64,000 nucleotides of DNA from Frankia casuarinae. Its GTDB lineage: Bacteria > Actinomycetota > Actinomycetes > Frankiales > Frankiaceae. Each line of letters starts with the position of its first letter. Positions within the stretch are counted from its first letter, which is position 1. A program made the translations under genes and the position numbers. The stretch spans positions 3,658,001-3,722,000 of the forward strand of contig NC_007777.1 of assembly GCF_000013345.1 (NCBI RefSeq). Reading direction: 5' to 3'. This document shows positions 56,765 to 64,000 of the stretch, one piece after another. The notes under the pieces are model-generated. The model saw only the letters and a program-made list of their open reading frames with translations, ran no database searches and was not told the DNA's origin.

Positions 56765-56791
56765 GTAACGCTACGGAAACCATCCCGTGAT
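56765..56791 (+). promoter_or_regulatory. GlnR box upstream of glnA (three half-sites)
   Basis: GTAAC (56765-56769), GAAAC (56776-56780) and GTGAT (56787-56791) are separated by exactly 6 bases. The first two match the GlnR pattern gTnAC-n6-GaAAC perfectly. The site is about 90-115 bp upstream of the glnA ATG, so nitrogen-dependent control by GlnR is expected (known for actinomycete glnA). Confidence 0.75.
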
Positions 56792-56879
56792 GTCGTACAC
56801 CGATGACCTGGTGACCGGAGACACGCCAACATGGCGTAACCTGTGGGCCTAAGAAGCGTGACGCGATGCTGGAGGACGA

Positions 56880-58304
56880 ATGTTCACAAAAGCAGAAGAC
56901 GTGCTTCGCTATATCCGGGACGAAGACGTTCAGTTCATCGATGTCAGGTTCTGCGATCTTCCCGGGATCATGCAGCACTTCACCATCCCGACCCAGGTCT
57001 TCGCGGAGTCGGTGTTCACCGAAGGCCTGATGTTCGACGGCTCGTCGATCCGCGGCTTCCAGGCCATCCACGAGTCCGACATGCTGCTGCTACCGGACCC
57101 GCACACCGCTTTCGTGGACCCCTTCCGCGAGCACAAGACCCTCGCCATGACGTTCTTCATCCATGACCCGATCACCAAGGAACAGTACTCCCGGGACCCG
57201 CGCAACATCGCCAAGAAGGCGGAGGCCTATCTCCGGGGCACCGGCGTCGCGGACACCGCGTATTTCGGTCCGGAGGCGGAGTTCTACATCTTCGACGATG
57301 TCCGTTATGACTACAACCCCTACGGGTCGATGCACCAGGTCGACTCGGTCGAGGCCGCCTGGAACACCGCCCGGAAGGAAGAGGGCGGAAACCTCGGGTA
57401 CAAGCCGAGGTTCAAGGGCGGCTACTTCCCGGTGCCGCCCACGGACCACTTCACCGACCTGCGTTCCGAGATGACCCGGGTGCTCTACGAGACGGGTATC
57501 ACCGTCGAGATGCAGCACCACGAGGTCGGCACCGCGGGCCAGGCGGAGATCGACATCAGGTACGACACGCTCCTGAAGACCGCCGACAACCTGATGCTCT
57601 ACAAGTACGTCATCCGCAACGTCGCCCGCGGCCGCGGCAAGACCGTCACCTTCATGCCGAAGCCGCTGTTCGAGGACAACGGATCCGGTATGCACGTCCA
57701 CTCCAGCCTGTGGAAGGACGGGGAGCCACTCTTCTACAGCCCGAACGGGTACGGCGGTCTCTCGGACACCGCCCGCTACTACATCGGGGGGCTGCTGCAC
57801 CACGCCCCGGCGCTGCTGGCCTTCACCAACCCCACCACGAACTCCTACCGTCGGCTCGTGCCCGGCTACGAGGCACCCGTCAACCTGGTCTACTCGGCCC
57901 GCAACCGGTCAGCGTGCTGCCGCATCCCGCTCAGCGGTGACTCGCCGAAGGCCAAGCGGGTCGAGTTCCGCGTGCCGGATCCGAGCTGCAACCCGTATCT
58001 CGCCTTCGCCGCGATTCTGATGGCGGGACTCGACGGCGTGCGGAACAAGATTGATCCGCCGGACCCGATCGACAAGGATCTCTACGACCTCCCGCCGGAC
58101 GAGTTGGCCGCGGTTCCCCAGGTCCCGGGTTCGCTGGAGAAGGTGCTCGATGCGCTGGAGGCGGACAACGAGTTCCTGCGGGAGGGCGACGTCTTCACCG
58201 CGGATCTGATCGAGACCTGGCTGGACTACAAGCGGGTCAACGAGGTCGACGCCATCCGCCTGCGGCCGCATCCATACGAGTTCACCCTCTACTACGACAT
58301 CTGA
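56880..58304 (+). CDS. glnA: glutamine synthetase type I (GSI-beta)
   Basis: A 474-residue ATP-dependent enzyme, a dodecamer in the family. The substrate/metal motifs are [48 protein letters not shown] and NRSACCRIP. The adenylylation loop is [10 protein letters not shown] near residue 400, with the modifiable Tyr present, so GlnE can control it. GAGGACGA supplies the ribosome binding site. Controlled upstream by a GlnR box. Confidence 0.97.
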
Positions 58305-59032
58305 CGCCCAGCCGTAAGGTTCCGGCCATTGACCCATCGCCGGGCCTCGGGCGATCCGGCGGGCACCGAGGCGGTGACCGCGACCGGGTCCCGGACAGGT
58401 GCGGCACCGGTGAACCGCGGGGGTCGGTCACGCTCTTGAGGCGGGGAGCCCTGATTGACCCCTGCGGTTCGTCTGGGCCTTCGCCGCGGCGCCAGAAGGC
58501 CTCTTCGAGCCGGGGACGCGTGCGGAAACCAGGTCCCGCCGCCACCTCCGGGCGGAGACCGGCCGAAGGTCCGCCGCTGTCCACCAAGCGCCGGCGAGCG
58601 CCGGAAAGATCGCGAACAGGAGATGCCCGGACCCTTTCCCGGGATACCAGGCGAAACCCCGAACCCACATTGAAAATTAGTATACCAATTCCCCGAGGCC
58701 CTACTTCGACGACGTCGGAGGCGGGCCTCACGTATATGCGGAACGGCGCGGTCCAGAATACCGGCCATCTCCCTCCGCCGCCCGCCGGGACAGCACGACA
58801 CAAAAGCGGAGTCGGGGACCCCGAAAATCCCGGACGGCAGCCGGCCCCGATCGCCCAGAGCCAGCCTTTCGTGACATAGCAGAGACCAAAAATTAACAAT
58901 CGCGGAACAGGAAGGTAACTGGGCACGACAAGGCTCCGGTCGAACCCTCCCGTCATTCGCGGCCTGGGTCGGCTGGCCAGGCCGATCACGAAGTCGCTCC
59001 GTAACGTGCAGGATCAACCACGGGGAGTATGA
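58305..59032. other. 728-bp intergenic region upstream of glnII
   Basis: No gene seen. It has AT-rich islands unlike its surroundings (near 58670-58690 and 58885-58900) and the glnII GlnR-type array (separate entry). Likely the glnII control region with a long leader, and the end of the glnA transcript; no clear glnA terminator was found. Confidence 0.5.
58871..58919 (+). promoter_or_regulatory. extended GlnR box array upstream of glnII (five half-sites)
   Basis: GTGAC (58871-58875), GAGAC (58882-58886), TTAAC (58893-58897), GGAAC (58904-58908) and GTAAC (58915-58919) follow at exactly 6-base gaps, an 11-bp period. The first four match the a-site/b-site layout of actinomycete GlnR boxes; the fifth extends it. 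The array ends 113 bp before the glnII GTG. Confidence 0.75.
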
Positions 59033-60094
59033 GTGAGTTATCAGGCCGAGTACATCTGGATCGACGGCACCGAGCCCGAGCCGCTGATGCGCAGCAAGAC
59101 CCGCATCATCAGGGACGGTAAGGAACCGGAGATCTGGGGCTTCGACGGCTCGAGCACCAACCAGGCGCCCGGATCGAACTCGGACTGCGTGCTGCGGCCC
59201 GTCTTCGTCACGCCCGACCCGCTGCGGGGTGGCGACAACCTCCTGGTGCTCTGCGAGGTCGAGCTGACCGACTTCACGCCGCACCCGACGAACACCCGGG
59301 CCGCCGCCCGGACCGTCGCCGAGAAGTACGCCGACATGACGCCGATGTTCGGCATCGAGCAGGAGTACACCTTCTTCAAGGACGGCCGTCCCTACGGCTG
59401 GCCGGAGGTCGGCTACCCCGCGCCGCAGGGACCGTACTACTGTGGCGTCGGCGGCTCGAAGATGCCCGGCCGCCAGATCGTCGAGAGGCACGCGCAGGCC
59501 TGCCTCGACGCCGGTCTCGCCATCGAGGGCACCAACGCCGAGGTCATGATGGGCCAGTGGGAGTTCCAGATCGGCGTGCTCCCCGCCCCGGCGATCGGCG
59601 ACCAGATCTGGTTGGGCCGCTGGCTGCTCCACCGGATCGCCGAGGACTACGGCGTCGAGGTGTCGTTCGCCGCCAAGCCGATCCCGGGCGACTGGAACGG
59701 CGCCGGCGCGCACACCAACTTCTCCACCAGGCAGACGATGGAGGGCTGGGACGCCATCGTCGCCTGCTGCGAGGCGCTCGGCACCCGGGTGCTGGAGCAC
59801 GTGACCCACTACGGTCACGGCATCCAGGACCGGCTGACCGGTAAGCACGAGACAGCTCCGTGGAACAAGTTCTCCTGGGGCGCCTCCGACCGCGGCGCGT
59901 CGATCCGCATTCCGTGGGCTGTCGAGAAGGCCAAGAAGGGCTGGCTGGAAGACCGCCGCCCGAACGCGAACATGGACCCGTACCTGGTCTCCGCGCTCAT
60001 GATCGACACCTGCTGCAGCGCCTTGGCCGGCGACAAGCCGACGCTGTTCGTGCCGTCCCAGACCACCCCGACCCCGGCCGAGGCGACCGTCTGA
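59033..60094 (+). CDS. glnII: glutamine synthetase type II (eukaryote-like)
   Basis: A 353-residue GSII: YQAEYIWIDGTEPEPLMRSKTR, then EIWGFDGSSTNQAPGSNSDC, FGIEQEYTFF and GDWNGAGAHTNFSTR, all typical of GSII. It lacks the adenylylation Tyr loop, so GlnE does not control it; GlnR control through the upstream array is expected. In Frankia and Streptomyces GSII is made under nitrogen limitation (known). GTG 59033 follows GGGGAG. Confidence 0.96.
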   Translation: MSYQAEYIWIDGTEPEPLMRSKTRIIRDGKEPEIWGFDGSSTNQAPGSNSDCVLRPVFVTPDPLRGGDNLLVLCEVELTDFTPHPTNTRAAARTVAEKYADMTPMFGIEQEYTFFKDGRPYGWPEVGYPAPQGPYYCGVGGSKMPGRQIVERHAQACLDAGLAIEGTNAEVMMGQWEFQIGVLPAPAIGDQIWLGRWLLHRIAEDYGVEVSFAAKPIPGDWNGAGAHTNFSTRQTMEGWDAIVACCEALGTRVLEHVTHYGHGIQDRLTGKHETAPWNKFSWGASDRGASIRIPWAVEKAKKGWLEDRRPNANMDPYLVSALMIDTCCSALAGDKPTLFVPSQTTPTPAEATV

Positions 60095-60201: not shown

Positions 60202-63200
60202 CTAGCCGAAATCCGCGGTCCGCTCGCGCGCGAACACCTCCTCGACGACGGCGCGGGCCAGCGCCGCCGACCGGCGGTGCTCGGCGACGAGCTCGCCGGC
60301 CCGGTCGGAGGGGTATCCCGCCGCGCTCGCCATCGCCTCCAGACCGGGCGGGCGGTCGGGGACGACGTCCGGACGCGGCCAGCCGGCCAGCGTGCTCGCG
60401 TTGCGGATGCGGGAGGCGGACATCCAGGCCGCGCGCAGGATCTCCGCCTCGCTCGCGTCGAGCAGACCGGCGACGACCGCGGCCCCCAGGCCTTCGAGCG
60501 TCGACGTCGTGCGCAGCGTGGGAATCTGCCGGCCGTGGCGCAACTGGAGGATCTGCACCGCCCATTCCACGTCGGTCAGCCCCCCGGGGCCGAACTTCAG
60601 GTGCAGCGTACGATCGACTCCCCGTGGGATCCGTTCCCGCTCCATCCGCCCGCGCAGGCGGATGATCTCGTCCAGGGCGCCCGCGGGAAGCGTGGTCGGG
60701 TAACGCACCATGTCCGCCAGCCGGCAGAACCGGTAGGCGAGCCCGGGATCACCGGCCAGGGGCTCCGCCCGCAGCAGCGCCTGCGACTCCCACTCCTGCG
60801 ACCACCGTTGGTAGTAGGCCGCGTACGCCTCCAGCGTGCGCGAGGCCGGGCCGCTGCGCCCCTCCGGACGCAGCGCCGTGTCCAGGCGCAGCGCCGGATC
60901 GGGTCCGGGAACGGCCAGCAGCCGGTGCAGCTCACCGACCACCTCGGCGACGGCCCTGCTCGCCCGGTCCGCCGACGCTCCTGGCCTGGCCTCGTGCACG
61001 AACAGCACGTCGGCGTCGCTGCCGTAGGACATCTCCGCGCCGCCGAGCCGGCCCATCGCGATCATCGAGATCCGCGCCGGCAACGACTCCGGGTCACCTC
61101 CGGCGACCCTGCGCTCGGCGACGAGCAGGGACGCGGCAATGGTGGCGGCCGCGGCGTCCGCCAGCGCCCGGCCCACGGCTGCGACGTCCTGCAGGCCGAG
61201 CAGGTCCGCGCAGGCGACCCGGACCAGTTCGACGCGGCGCACCGCCCGGGCCCGCCCGACGGCCTCCTCCCAGTCGGGGTTGCGGTGGGCGATCGCCACC
61301 ATGGTCCGGACCAGTGCCTCCCGCGGCACCGGGACGAGATCGTCCTCGGTGCGCAGCAGCCGCACCGACTCCGGCGCACGGGCCATCAGGTCCGCCACGT
61401 ACCGGCTGGTCGCGAGCACCCGGGCGAGCCGGTACGCGGCGCCGGCAGAGTCCCGCAGCAGCCGCATATACCACGGGGTACGCCCGAGTGCCTCGCTGAC
61501 CCGCCGATAGGCCAGCAGCCCGGCGTCGGGATCGGGGGCGTCGGCGAAGGTGGGCAGCATCGTCGGCAACAGGTGGCGTTGGATCGCGGCCGTCCGGCTC
61601 ACCCCGCTGGTCAGCGCCTCGATATGGCGCAACGACCGGTCCGGCGCGGCGAAGCCGAGCGCGGCCAGCCGGTCGGCCGCCTCCTGGGGGGTGAGGCGGA
61701 TCTCCTCCGTCGACAGGCGGGCGACCGCCTCCAGCAACGGCTGGTAGAAGAGCTTCTCGTGCAGCGATCGGACGGATCGGACCACCCGAGCGTGGGCCTC
61801 CTCGAACGCCTCCGCCGTGCGCAACCCCATCGACCGGGCCAGCCAGCGCAGCTCGGTGGAATCCCGGGGCAGCGTGTGCACCCGGCGCAGCCGTTGCAGC
61901 TGAAGGCGGTGCTCGGCGTTACGGAGAAAACGGTAGGCGTCGGCGAGCCCGGCCGCGTCGCGCCGACCGACGTAGCCGCCGCGGGCCAGACCGTCGATGG
62001 CGCCCAGGGTGGAGGCGACCCGCAGCTTGGCATCCACCCGGCCGTGGACGAGTTGCAGCAGCTGGACGGCGAACTCGACGTCGCGCAGGCCGCCCGGGCC
62101 CAGCTTGAGATTGCGCTCCGCCTCCGCGCGGGACAGTGTCGACTCCACCCTGCGCCGCATCGCCCGCACGTCGGCCACGAAGCCGGGACGGGAGGCCGCC
62201 GTCCACACCATGGGCGCGACCATCGCGCAGAACTCGGCGCCCAACGCCAGGTCTCCCGCGATCGGGCGGGCCTTGAGTAACGCCTGGAACTCCCAGGTCC
62301 GGGCCCAGCGACGGTAGTAGGCGTGGTGGCTGGCGAGCGTGCGGACCAGGGCACCGTCCCGGCCCTCCGGGCGAAGCCCCACATCGACCTGGAACAGCGC
62401 ACCGGCAGCGGTGACGGTGCCGGCGGCCCGGACCAGCCCCTCCGCCAGCCGCGTCGCCGCCGTCAGTACCGCCGGCCCGGCCGGTTCCGCCCCGCTCTTC
62501 CCCCCGTTCGCCGTACCGTTCGCCGCATCGCGCGGTGCCGTCGGCTCGGCGACGAACACAACATCGACGTCGCTGACGTAGTTCAGTTCCCGTCCGCCGC
62601 ACTTGCCCATGCCGATCACGGCGAGCCGGACCGGGGGCAGCCGCGGGTCGAGCCCGGCACGGGCGACCGCCAGCGCCGCGTCCAGCGCGAATCCTGCCAG
62701 ATCGGCGAGTTCGGCCGTGGCCTCGTCGAGTGGCACCGCGCCGGTCAGGTCCCGCGCCGCGAGGACCAGCAGCGCCCTGCGGTACGCGATCCGCAGGGCG
62801 TCGAGGATCTGGGGACCGTCGCCCGCCGCCCGGGGCGCCGGATCGTCCTGATCCGCGCCGACCGCGCGCAGCAGACCCGCCCGCACGCTCGCCGCATCCG
62901 GCGGGGTGGTGACCACCTCGTCGGCTTCCAGGATGCGCCAGTCCGCCGGATGGCGGGCAAGATGATCGCCAAGCGCGATGCTCGCGCCGAGCACGGCGGC
63001 GAGCCGGTCCCGCAGCCCCTCGTGGCGGGCCAGCGCGCCGACGAGGGCCGCGCCCCCGGCCGGGCCGAGGGCGTCCACGAGCCGGTCCAGCGCGGCGAGA
63101 GCCCGGTCCGGATCGGCCGCGGCCGCCAGCGAGCCGGCCACGACATTGGCCTCGAGCCGTTCCTCGCGCACGATTCCCACGGTGGCGGGACCGGGCAGGA

Positions 63201-63405
63201 CATCCCTGCCGGCGGTGGGCGGCTGGACGGCCGGAGTGAGCAGGCCGAGGCGGCGCATCGTCGTCTCGACCCGGTCGACGTCGGTGAAGCCGAGCCGCGC
63301 GAGCTGCGCGGCGACCGAACTCCCCCGCGGATGGGCCGGGACCGATCCCGCCCCGACTGGTCCCGGCCCGACCGTGGGGGGCCGGGTGCCGGTCCGCCCG
63401 GTCAT
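60202..63405 (-). CDS. glnE: bifunctional GS adenylyltransferase/deadenylase
   Basis: A 1067-residue cytoplasmic regulator that adds and removes AMP at the GSI Tyr. Two nucleotidyltransferase modules are visible: the deadenylase-type GMGKCGGRELNYVSDVDVVFV near 265 and the adenylylase-type AMGRLGGAEMSYGSDADVLFV near 785. Helical PII/GlnE-specific domains follow each. Both DxD pairs are intact. ATG 63405 overlaps the glnA2 stop (ATGA), supporting this start over one 20 codons earlier. Confidence 0.95.
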   Translation of the reverse strand: MTGRTGTRPPTVGPGPVGAGSVPAHPRGSSVAAQLARLGFTDVDRVETTMRRLGLLTPAVQPPTAGRDVLPGPATVGIVREERLEANVVAGSLAAAADPDRALAALDRLVDALGPAGGAALVGALARHEGLRDRLAAVLGASIALGDHLARHPADWRILEADEVVTTPPDAASVRAGLLRAVGADQDDPAPRAAGDGPQILDALRIAYRRALLVLAARDLTGAVPLDEATAELADLAGFALDAALAVARAGLDPRLPPVRLAVIGMGKCGGRELNYVSDVDVVFVAEPTAPRDAANGTANGGKSGAEPAGPAVLTAATRLAEGLVRAAGTVTAAGALFQVDVGLRPEGRDGALVRTLASHHAYYRRWARTWEFQALLKARPIAGDLALGAEFCAMVAPMVWTAASRPGFVADVRAMRRRVESTLSRAEAERNLKLGPGGLRDVEFAVQLLQLVHGRVDAKLRVASTLGAIDGLARGGYVGRRDAAGLADAYRFLRNAEHRLQLQRLRRVHTLPRDSTELRWLARSMGLRTAEAFEEAHARVVRSVRSLHEKLFYQPLLEAVARLSTEEIRLTPQEAADRLAALGFAAPDRSLRHIEALTSGVSRTAAIQRHLLPTMLPTFADAPDPDAGLLAYRRVSEALGRTPWYMRLLRDSAGAAYRLARVLATSRYVADLMARAPESVRLLRTEDDLVPVPREALVRTMVAIAHRNPDWEEAVGRARAVRRVELVRVACADLLGLQDVAAVGRALADAAAATIAASLLVAERRVAGGDPESLPARISMIAMGRLGGAEMSYGSDADVLFVHEARPGASADRASRAVAEVVGELHRLLAVPGPDPALRLDTALRPEGRSGPASRTLEAYAAYYQRWSQEWESQALLRAEPLAGDPGLAYRFCRLADMVRYPTTLPAGALDEIIRLRGRMERERIPRGVDRTLHLKFGPGGLTDVEWAVQILQLRHGRQIPTLRTTSTLEGLGAAVVAGLLDASEAEILRAAWMSASRIRNASTLAGWPRPDVVPDRPPGLEAMASAAGYPSDRAGELVAEHRRSAALARAVVEEVFARERTADFG

Positions 63406-64000
63406 AGCACCGGCAGGTACCGGTCGATCTCGAACGGGGTCACCTGCCGACGGTATTCCAGCCACTCGGCCCGCTTGTTCCGCAGGAAGAAGTCGAACAA
63501 CTCGTCGCCGAGGGTCTCCCGCACAAGCGCGGAATGCTCCATCACCTTGACCGCCTCGGCGAGCGAGCCGGGCAGGGCGGTGATCCCGCGCTCACGGCGC
63601 TGCGTGTCGGTGAGCGTCCAGACATCGTCCGCCGAAGCCGGTGGCAGCTCATAACCGCCCTGGACACCCCGCAGGCCGGCTGCCAGCACCAGGGCGAAGG
63701 TGAGATACGGGTTGCACGCGCTGTCCGGCAGCCGGAACTCCACCCGGGTGGCGTTGGATTTGTGGAGCTTGTAGAGCGGAACCCGCACGAGCGCCGAACG
63801 GTTGTTGTGGCCCCAGCACACATAGGCCGGCGCCTCCAGCACCTCGCCGACCCGCTGGTCGCCGATGAGCCGCTTGTAGGAGTTCACCCACTGGTTGGTC
63901 ACCGCGGTGATTTCGGCGGCGTGCGCGAGGAGCCCGGCGATGAAGGCCTTCGCCACCTTGGACAGCTGATAGTCGTCGGTCGGGTCGTGAAAGGCGTTAC
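63402..64000 (-). CDS. glnA2: glutamine synthetase-like GlnA2, 5' part outside the window
   Basis: The last 199 codons of a type I GS-like gene: SYKRLIGDQRVGEVLEAPAYVCWGHNNRSALVRVP, RVEFRLPDSACNPYLTFALVLAAGL, and a C-terminus EYRRQVTPFEIDRYLPVL. In the loop where GSI carries the adenylylation Tyr, the sequence reads TDTQRRERGITALPGSL, so modification by GlnE is not expected. Adjacent position to glnE and the terminal sequence match GlnA2 of mycobacteria and Streptomyces, whose members may act on polyamines or other amines rather than ammonia. Confidence 0.9.
   Translation of the reverse strand, partial: NAFHDPTDDYQLSKVAKAFIAGLLAHAAEITAVTNQWVNSYKRLIGDQRVGEVLEAPAYVCWGHNNRSALVRVPLYKLHKSNATRVEFRLPDSACNPYLTFALVLAAGLRGVQGGYELPPASADDVWTLTDTQRRERGITALPGSLAEAVKVMEHSALVRETLGDELFDFFLRNKRAEWLEYRRQVTPFEIDRYLPVL

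Follow-up and report, generated by a model that had tools for sequence, protein, structure and literature searches.

The closest described systems include GlnR-dependent promoters of Streptomyces. GlnR elements consist of half-sites of the gTnAC/GaAAC type with six-base spacers (PMC10704036; PMC5826061), and each half-site has an adenine as its fourth base (Wang 2015, as cited in PMC10704036). Typical GlnR targets in Streptomyces, including glnII, have two boxes (PMC5826061). In the activation complex four GlnR DNA-binding domains are arranged head to tail, and the receiver domains form a tetramer (PMC10704036). Four half-sites, which an initial sequence-only reading of the DNA analyzed here had given as the known box size, are not an upper limit, as the amtB promoter of S. 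coelicolor has six GlnR sites in three boxes, the most found in one promoter (PMC5826061). Five of these six sites are needed, site a2 is located at the -35 position, and when the three boxes were reduced to two, the 300-fold induction seen at 60 min fell to 45-fold (PMC5826061). The existence of promoters with more than four GlnR sites, and the effect of such sites on speed, are already known. The same applies to an odd number of needed sites, as three (a1, b1, and b2) of four are required at the nas operon (PMC10704036). In M. tuberculosis GlnR sites are located at -37 of glnA1 and at -30 of glnA2 (PMC4950008).

The locus under study is located in a stretch of 64,000 nucleotides (the window) of the genome of Frankia casuarinae, which is a single contig of 5,433,628 bases. 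The strain is taken to be CcI3, as one published CcI3 primer each fits glnII and glnA exactly. The window contains glnII, encoding glutamine synthetase type II (francci3_3143, 59033-60094, forward strand), which matched NF041605 (gln_syn_GlnII) with 573.5 bits at a cut-off of 500, and to which a published CcI3 francci3_3143 primer fits exactly at 59717-59739. Direct reading and a script revealed five GlnR-type half-sites upstream of glnII on the same strand, at 58871-58919, with six bases between neighbors, i.e., in 11-bp steps. They comprise the distal, extra site 1, GTGAC (58871-58875), and the four core sites, namely site 2, GAGAC (a1, 58882-58886), site 3, TTAAC (b1, 58893-58897), site 4, GGAAC (a2, 58904-58908), and site 5, GTAAC (b2, 58915-58919), the end of which is 113 bases upstream of the GTG start codon. 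The sequence-only reading had claimed a strict 11-bp register, and coordinates and spacing were found to be exact upon re-reading. The spacing and the half-sites themselves agree with the GlnR consensus, and all five sites have an adenine at the fourth position; in the relatives this adenine is present at sites 2-5 in 26/26 distinct upstream regions and less often at site 1.

Like the two-box a-b-a-b elements of S. coelicolor glnA and glnII, the array has six-base spacers and is located upstream of a nitrogen-assimilation gene, and sites 2-5 match such an element. Unlike these elements, it has one further in-phase half-site upstream. It shares with S. coelicolor amtB the presence of more than four half-sites (five at glnII) in one promoter and an a2 site at the -35 position, which for glnII is predicted, but amtB is a different gene, and its six sites form three a-b pairs. 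In addition, the extra box of amtB was shown to speed induction, an effect that would be a prediction for the extra site of Frankia glnII. The nas operon, with its odd number of needed sites, resembles the array in this number being odd; it differs in that it has fewer sites and that b1 and b2 are separated by 16 bases (PMC10704036). The amtB array of Frankia itself has the same 11-bp register and the same distance to a putative -10 element as glnII, but it has four sites (TTCAC, GAAAC, GACAC, and GGAAC), and AATTT or AATTC occupies the fifth place in 12 regions. A five-site array at Frankia glnII is not described in the titles and abstract openings of the publications about Frankia GlnR or the glnII promoter, a search that covered mainly freely accessible literature, and in the literature searched no data on Frankia GlnR binding, footprints, or the glnII start site were found.

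Half-site runs of different lengths were counted to evaluate how often such an array is expected. When both strands of the window were scanned with period 11, the glnII array was the sole run of at least four half-sites with the motif KNRAC or KNNAC; at other periods KNNAC yielded two four-site runs, one each with periods 9 and 10. No five-site run was present on either strand of 6.4 Mb of sequence simulated with a first-order Markov model; with KNRAC this sequence had 65 runs of at least three and no run of at least four sites, and with KNNAC the respective numbers were 328 and 11. As a sample of the organism's own genome, twenty evenly spaced 20-kb stretches were used (400 kb, both strands), which did not contain an 11-bp five-site run. 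Four-site runs at 11 bp were found zero times with KNRAC, once with KNNAC, and four times with KNNAY. The KNNAY five-site runs at other periods numbered 22 at period 9, 10 at period 15, and three each at periods 10 and 16. Long half-site runs are thus not rare at some spacings; they are rare specifically at 11 bp. The combination of four half-sites and NANNNT at a gap of 10 bases occurred once in the window and the 400-kb sample taken together, and this occurrence was the glnII array. As the half-site motif had been defined after the sites were seen, conservation is a stronger test than these chance counts.

The anatomy of the promoter was compared in 97 glnII upstream regions, which were scanned for four K-N-N-A-C/T half-sites at 11 bp. 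Such arrays were present in 55 of the 97 regions, 27 from Frankiaceae and 28 from others; the opposite strand yielded one. The 28 others comprised 21 metagenome-assembled sequences (Acidimicrobiaceae, Actinomycetes, or uncultured relatives) and seven of two families, f17 and f18. Two truncated contigs (L046 and L062) are included in the 42 regions devoid of an array. In two f17 regions (L158 and L159) the scan missed the array by one base of the third site, and CAATCT and CACTCT were seen by eye at gap 10. No 11-bp four-site array was detected in the remaining glnII upstream regions of the 97, e.g., those of Kineosporia and Paractinoplanes. A -10-like NANNNT was located exactly 10 bases past the last half-site in all 55 four-site arrays; at other gaps the numbers were mostly 0 to 4, with 25 each at gaps 21 and 23. 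It was also present at gap 10 in 14/14 Frankia amtB-type regions with a four-site array, i.e., 12 amtB regions plus L175 and L183; nine of the 12 had NANNNT also at gap 1 and eight at gap 24.

Because this gap of 10 bases is constant in glnII and amtB-type arrays, the -10 element of Frankia glnII is most likely AAGGCT at 58930-58935. A spacer of 17 bases would set the -35 element at 58907-58912, where the sequence ACAGGA overlaps site 4 and is unlike TTGACA. Given the constant gap, a2 would thus be located at the -35 position and b2 between -35 and -10. Transcription would be expected to start near 58942, and the start-site region and the untranslated leader would extend from 58936 to 59032. 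Two other -10 candidates were rejected. When TTAACA at site 3 was taken as -35 and TAACTG as -10, the last base of the latter was not kept in the relatives. RAYCCT at 58943-58948 has a gap of 23 bases, which was found in 25/55 regions, versus 55/55 for the 10-base gap, and the latter is common to the glnII arrays outside the Frankiaceae and to amtB. The placement of the -10 element suggests that the usual platform of four sites is formed by sites 2-5 and that the distal GTGAC at 58871 is the addition. The distance between sites 2-5 and the -10 element is the same as in the glnII arrays of family f18, which is probably Streptomyces-like. The constant spacing of last half-site and -10 element could be of use in searching other actinobacteria for promoters activated by GlnR.

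The conservation of the single sites was analyzed with 28 Frankiaceae glnII upstream regions, all of which could be anchored on sites 3-5, and 26 of which were distinct and full-length. The mean information content in the latter was 1.60 bits for the half-site columns versus 0.84 bits for the spacers; as the rows are related, some represent the same genome twice, and KNNAY is a loose motif, such counts overstate the independent evidence. The anchor sites 3-5 were kept in 28/28 rows. Among the 26 rows the anchor columns comprised TTAAC (22) and TTTAC (4) at site 3, GGAAC (23), GTGAC (2), and GAAAC (1) at site 4, and GTAAC (15) and GAAAC (11) at site 5. Site 2, which was not used for anchoring, was GAGAC, GTGAC, TTGAC, or a T-ending equivalent in all 26. 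Site 1 was the least conserved of the five sites.

Site 1 was further followed in a survey of the family, in which 31 of 32 GlnII-bearing genomes were read; one (G129) was left out, having only 31 bases upstream of glnII. The genomes belong to the genus of the window and to Protofrankia-like, Parafrankia-like, and Pseudofrankia-like genera, labels that were derived from named loci sharing the promoter sequences. In the first three genera site 1 had the form G-N-N-A-C/T in 23/23 readable genomes, with varying middle bases (TG, TC, CG, CA, AA, and TA). K-N-N-A-C was found in 12/12 readable genomes of the genus of the window (in the 13th, G012, the region is cut by a contig end), in 6/6 Parafrankia-like genomes, and in one of five Protofrankia-like genomes, the remaining four being T-ending. 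This verified that a fifth in-phase site is present at glnII, and it is kept in three genera of the family. Loss of register or half-site identity in relatives had been named as a refutation of the sequence-only reading, and the outcome was mixed: register and identity hold for sites 2-5 in every readable Frankiaceae region, but in the Pseudofrankia-like genus site 1 is out of register in all seven cases (0/7 in register; six by script and G139 by eye). In this genus TCAAC or ACAAC is kept 15 instead of 11 bases upstream of site 2 (L209, L211, L212, L153, L155, L214, and L215, by eye), as if a fifth half-site had slipped out of the 11-bp register by 4 bases. Outside the Frankiaceae, K-N-N-A-C/T occurred at the place of site 1 in three of 28 four-site arrays, few enough that chance may account for them. 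Given its weaker conservation and its loss of register in Pseudofrankia-like genomes, site 1 is inessential to the promoter. Evidence for a sixth site was not obtained: the downstream in-register place (CGACA in the window) had no kept half-site in the family rows, and at the upstream place TGAAC was present in 2/5 Protofrankia-like genomes, with CACAT, CAAAT, and the other genera unfitting.

A candidate for the regulator was found by a sequence search, in which an open reading frame matched PDB entries 8hih (E 2.6e-90), 8hig, 8hml, and 4o1i. The matched entries are named transcriptional regulatory or OmpR-family proteins, and we take all four to be GlnR structures. With this assumption about the entries, each of the 13/13 genomes of the genus encodes GlnR, as one match with an E value of 1e-60 or better was found in each, one of them (G011) with an internal stop. 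Among the 25 matches listed no NCBIfam name above the cut-off was present for the candidate. The proposal of a GlnR-type array at glnII is supported by the presence of GlnR-type half-sites and of a GlnR-like protein encoded in the genome. The genome also encodes a uroporphyrinogen-III synthase that ends in an OmpR-type DNA-binding domain (L135:1489-2958, minus strand; G000:C1 near 923394; NF005568, 546.8 bits). This protein is presumably NnaR-like.

The neighboring glnA gene encodes glutamine synthetase type I (francci3_3142, 56880-58304, forward strand; TIGR00653, 679.8 bits, cut-off 429.15) and is matched exactly by a published CcI3 francci3_3142 primer at 57163-57186. On the same strand it is preceded by a shorter GlnR-type array, GTAAC-n6-GAAAC-n6-GTGAT (56765-56791), which has three half-sites and no fourth, and the same was true for 5/5 other regions in which the search found glnA, among 19 loci. 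The idea that the fifth site could be gauged by comparing the sensitivity of glnII with that of glnA does not hold, because the two promoters differ also in the fourth site, and thus the fifth is not isolated. In qRT-PCR experiments the francci3_3143 mRNA increased 10-15-fold under nitrogen deficiency at every oxygen condition, and the francci3_3142 mRNA decreased (PMC4058466). The published expression is in line with a GlnR array that is strong at glnII and incomplete at glnA; effects of five sites and of four cannot be told apart by it.

The array is very probably a GlnR-activated promoter in a lineage-specific five-site variant, and we regard it as rather likely that the full explanation is GlnR activation of glnII with one half-site beyond the standard four. 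When nitrogen is limiting, GlnR protomers would line up head to tail, each on its own 11-bp half-site, and sites 2-5 (58882-58919) would form the normal activating platform. With site 4 over the -35 position and site 5 in the spacer between -35 and -10, GlnR would replace the missing -35 element and hold RNA polymerase at the -10 element AAGGCT. Site 1 would add one in-phase protomer upstream of the platform, and its most likely effect would be a higher occupancy, so that induction would come sooner or be stronger when nitrogen declines. GlnR binding and the transcription start are predictions, as is whatever site 1 contributes. It is plausible that the fifth site raises the sensitivity, an effect that is reasonable because of the analogy to amtB and because the key bases of site 1 are conserved. 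The fifth protomer may, on the other hand, not contact the activation complex, because the structure of GlnR with RNA polymerase contains four protomers (PMC10704036).

That solved structure, together with the observation that one of the six amtB sites, a2, is dispensable (PMC5826061), is also what would be expected if the four core sites did the work and site 1 were a weak or neutral remnant with little or no GlnR binding. Such a remnant would explain why site 1 shows the lowest conservation among the five sites, is off register in the Pseudofrankia-like genus, and is lacking in 25/28 arrays outside the Frankiaceae. Under neutral drift, however, it would be unexpected that G, A, and C/T of site 1 are kept in 23/23 genomes while the middle bases change, and we judge this explanation to be possible, but on balance unlikely. 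The accidental occurrence in phase of some of the sites, with only two or three that matter, would be easier to envisage for a half-site of merely three specified positions, and three-site runs were indeed found in the 400-kb sample (4 with KNRAC, 18 with KNNAC, and 58 with KNNAY). Nevertheless, the lack of 11-bp five-site runs in both the genome sample and the simulation speaks against it, and it is contradicted by the higher conservation of half-sites than of spacers and by the invariant distance to the -10 element, making an accident highly improbable.

A further explanation would be that the main user of the array, or a competitor of GlnR, is another OmpR-family regulator that binds 11-bp repeats, i.e., PhoP, MtrA, or AfsQ1. 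The OmpR-type DNA-binding domain family is represented in the genome by 20 matches. The PhoP core is TTCAC, in 11-bp repeats. TTCAC is none of the five glnII sites, nor any site of the other Frankiaceae glnII regions surveyed, so that no PhoP box of the TTCAC type was seen at glnII, whereas Frankia amtB and the f17 and f18 arrays do include a TTCAC site. In S. coelicolor PhoP competes with GlnR at glnA, glnII, and amtB, and AfsQ1 acts at glnII (PMC10704036). The nitrogen response of Frankia glnII, however, fits GlnR (PMC4058466), and a leading or competing role of one of the other regulators seems quite improbable.

The distribution of the fifth site was compared with that of nifH. NifH above the curated cut-off was found in 24/24 genomes of the three genera with an in-register site 1 and in one of eight Pseudofrankia-like genomes. 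The presence of the fifth site tracked nifH in all 30 genomes readable for both, 23 nifH-positive genomes with the site and seven nifH-negative genomes without it. Because all nifH-negative cases belong to one genus, this link is confounded by ancestry and may reflect a single loss by descent. The sole nifH-positive Pseudofrankia-like genome (G144) has no GlnII match and so cannot break this confound. It is tempting to speculate that the fifth half-site is a tuning element linked to diazotrophy, whose additional protomer would switch on glutamine synthetase II, the ammonium-scavenging enzyme, earlier or harder as nitrogen fixation begins, but we consider this to be quite doubtful. The Frankia glnII promoter varies a known design to a modest extent, the variation is retained in those nitrogen-fixing relatives that were compared, and nothing known would be overturned by it. 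A known activator is thereby assigned to a promoter of a nitrogen-fixing plant-root symbiont, with an extra half-site identified. It also enables the question of how GlnR occupancy scales with half-site number, four versus five, on the same core promoter, for which the Pseudofrankia-like genomes would be a natural four-site control.

Some further features surround the array. The glnII leader (58942-59032) is strongly conserved in Frankiaceae, and in 15 aligned sequences a conserved CUCCC close to the expected start would be able to pair with the ribosome site GGGGAG, in two of them with G-U pairs. A regulatory RNA structure was not supported, as the leader has no Rfam match, 0/17 predicted pairs changed on both sides, and the fold z-scores of five sequences (-1.04 to 1.56) were not unusual. 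Upstream of glnA (56765-56880) a conserved GTAACCT or GTGACCC is located nearer to the gene than the array and may belong to a separate promoter. Downstream of glnII the adenylyltransferase gene glnE is located on the opposite strand (60202-63465), and a further glutamine-synthetase-like reading frame, also on the minus strand, enters the end of the window (63402-63998), and thus the region contains a glutamine synthetase cluster together with its adenylyltransferase.
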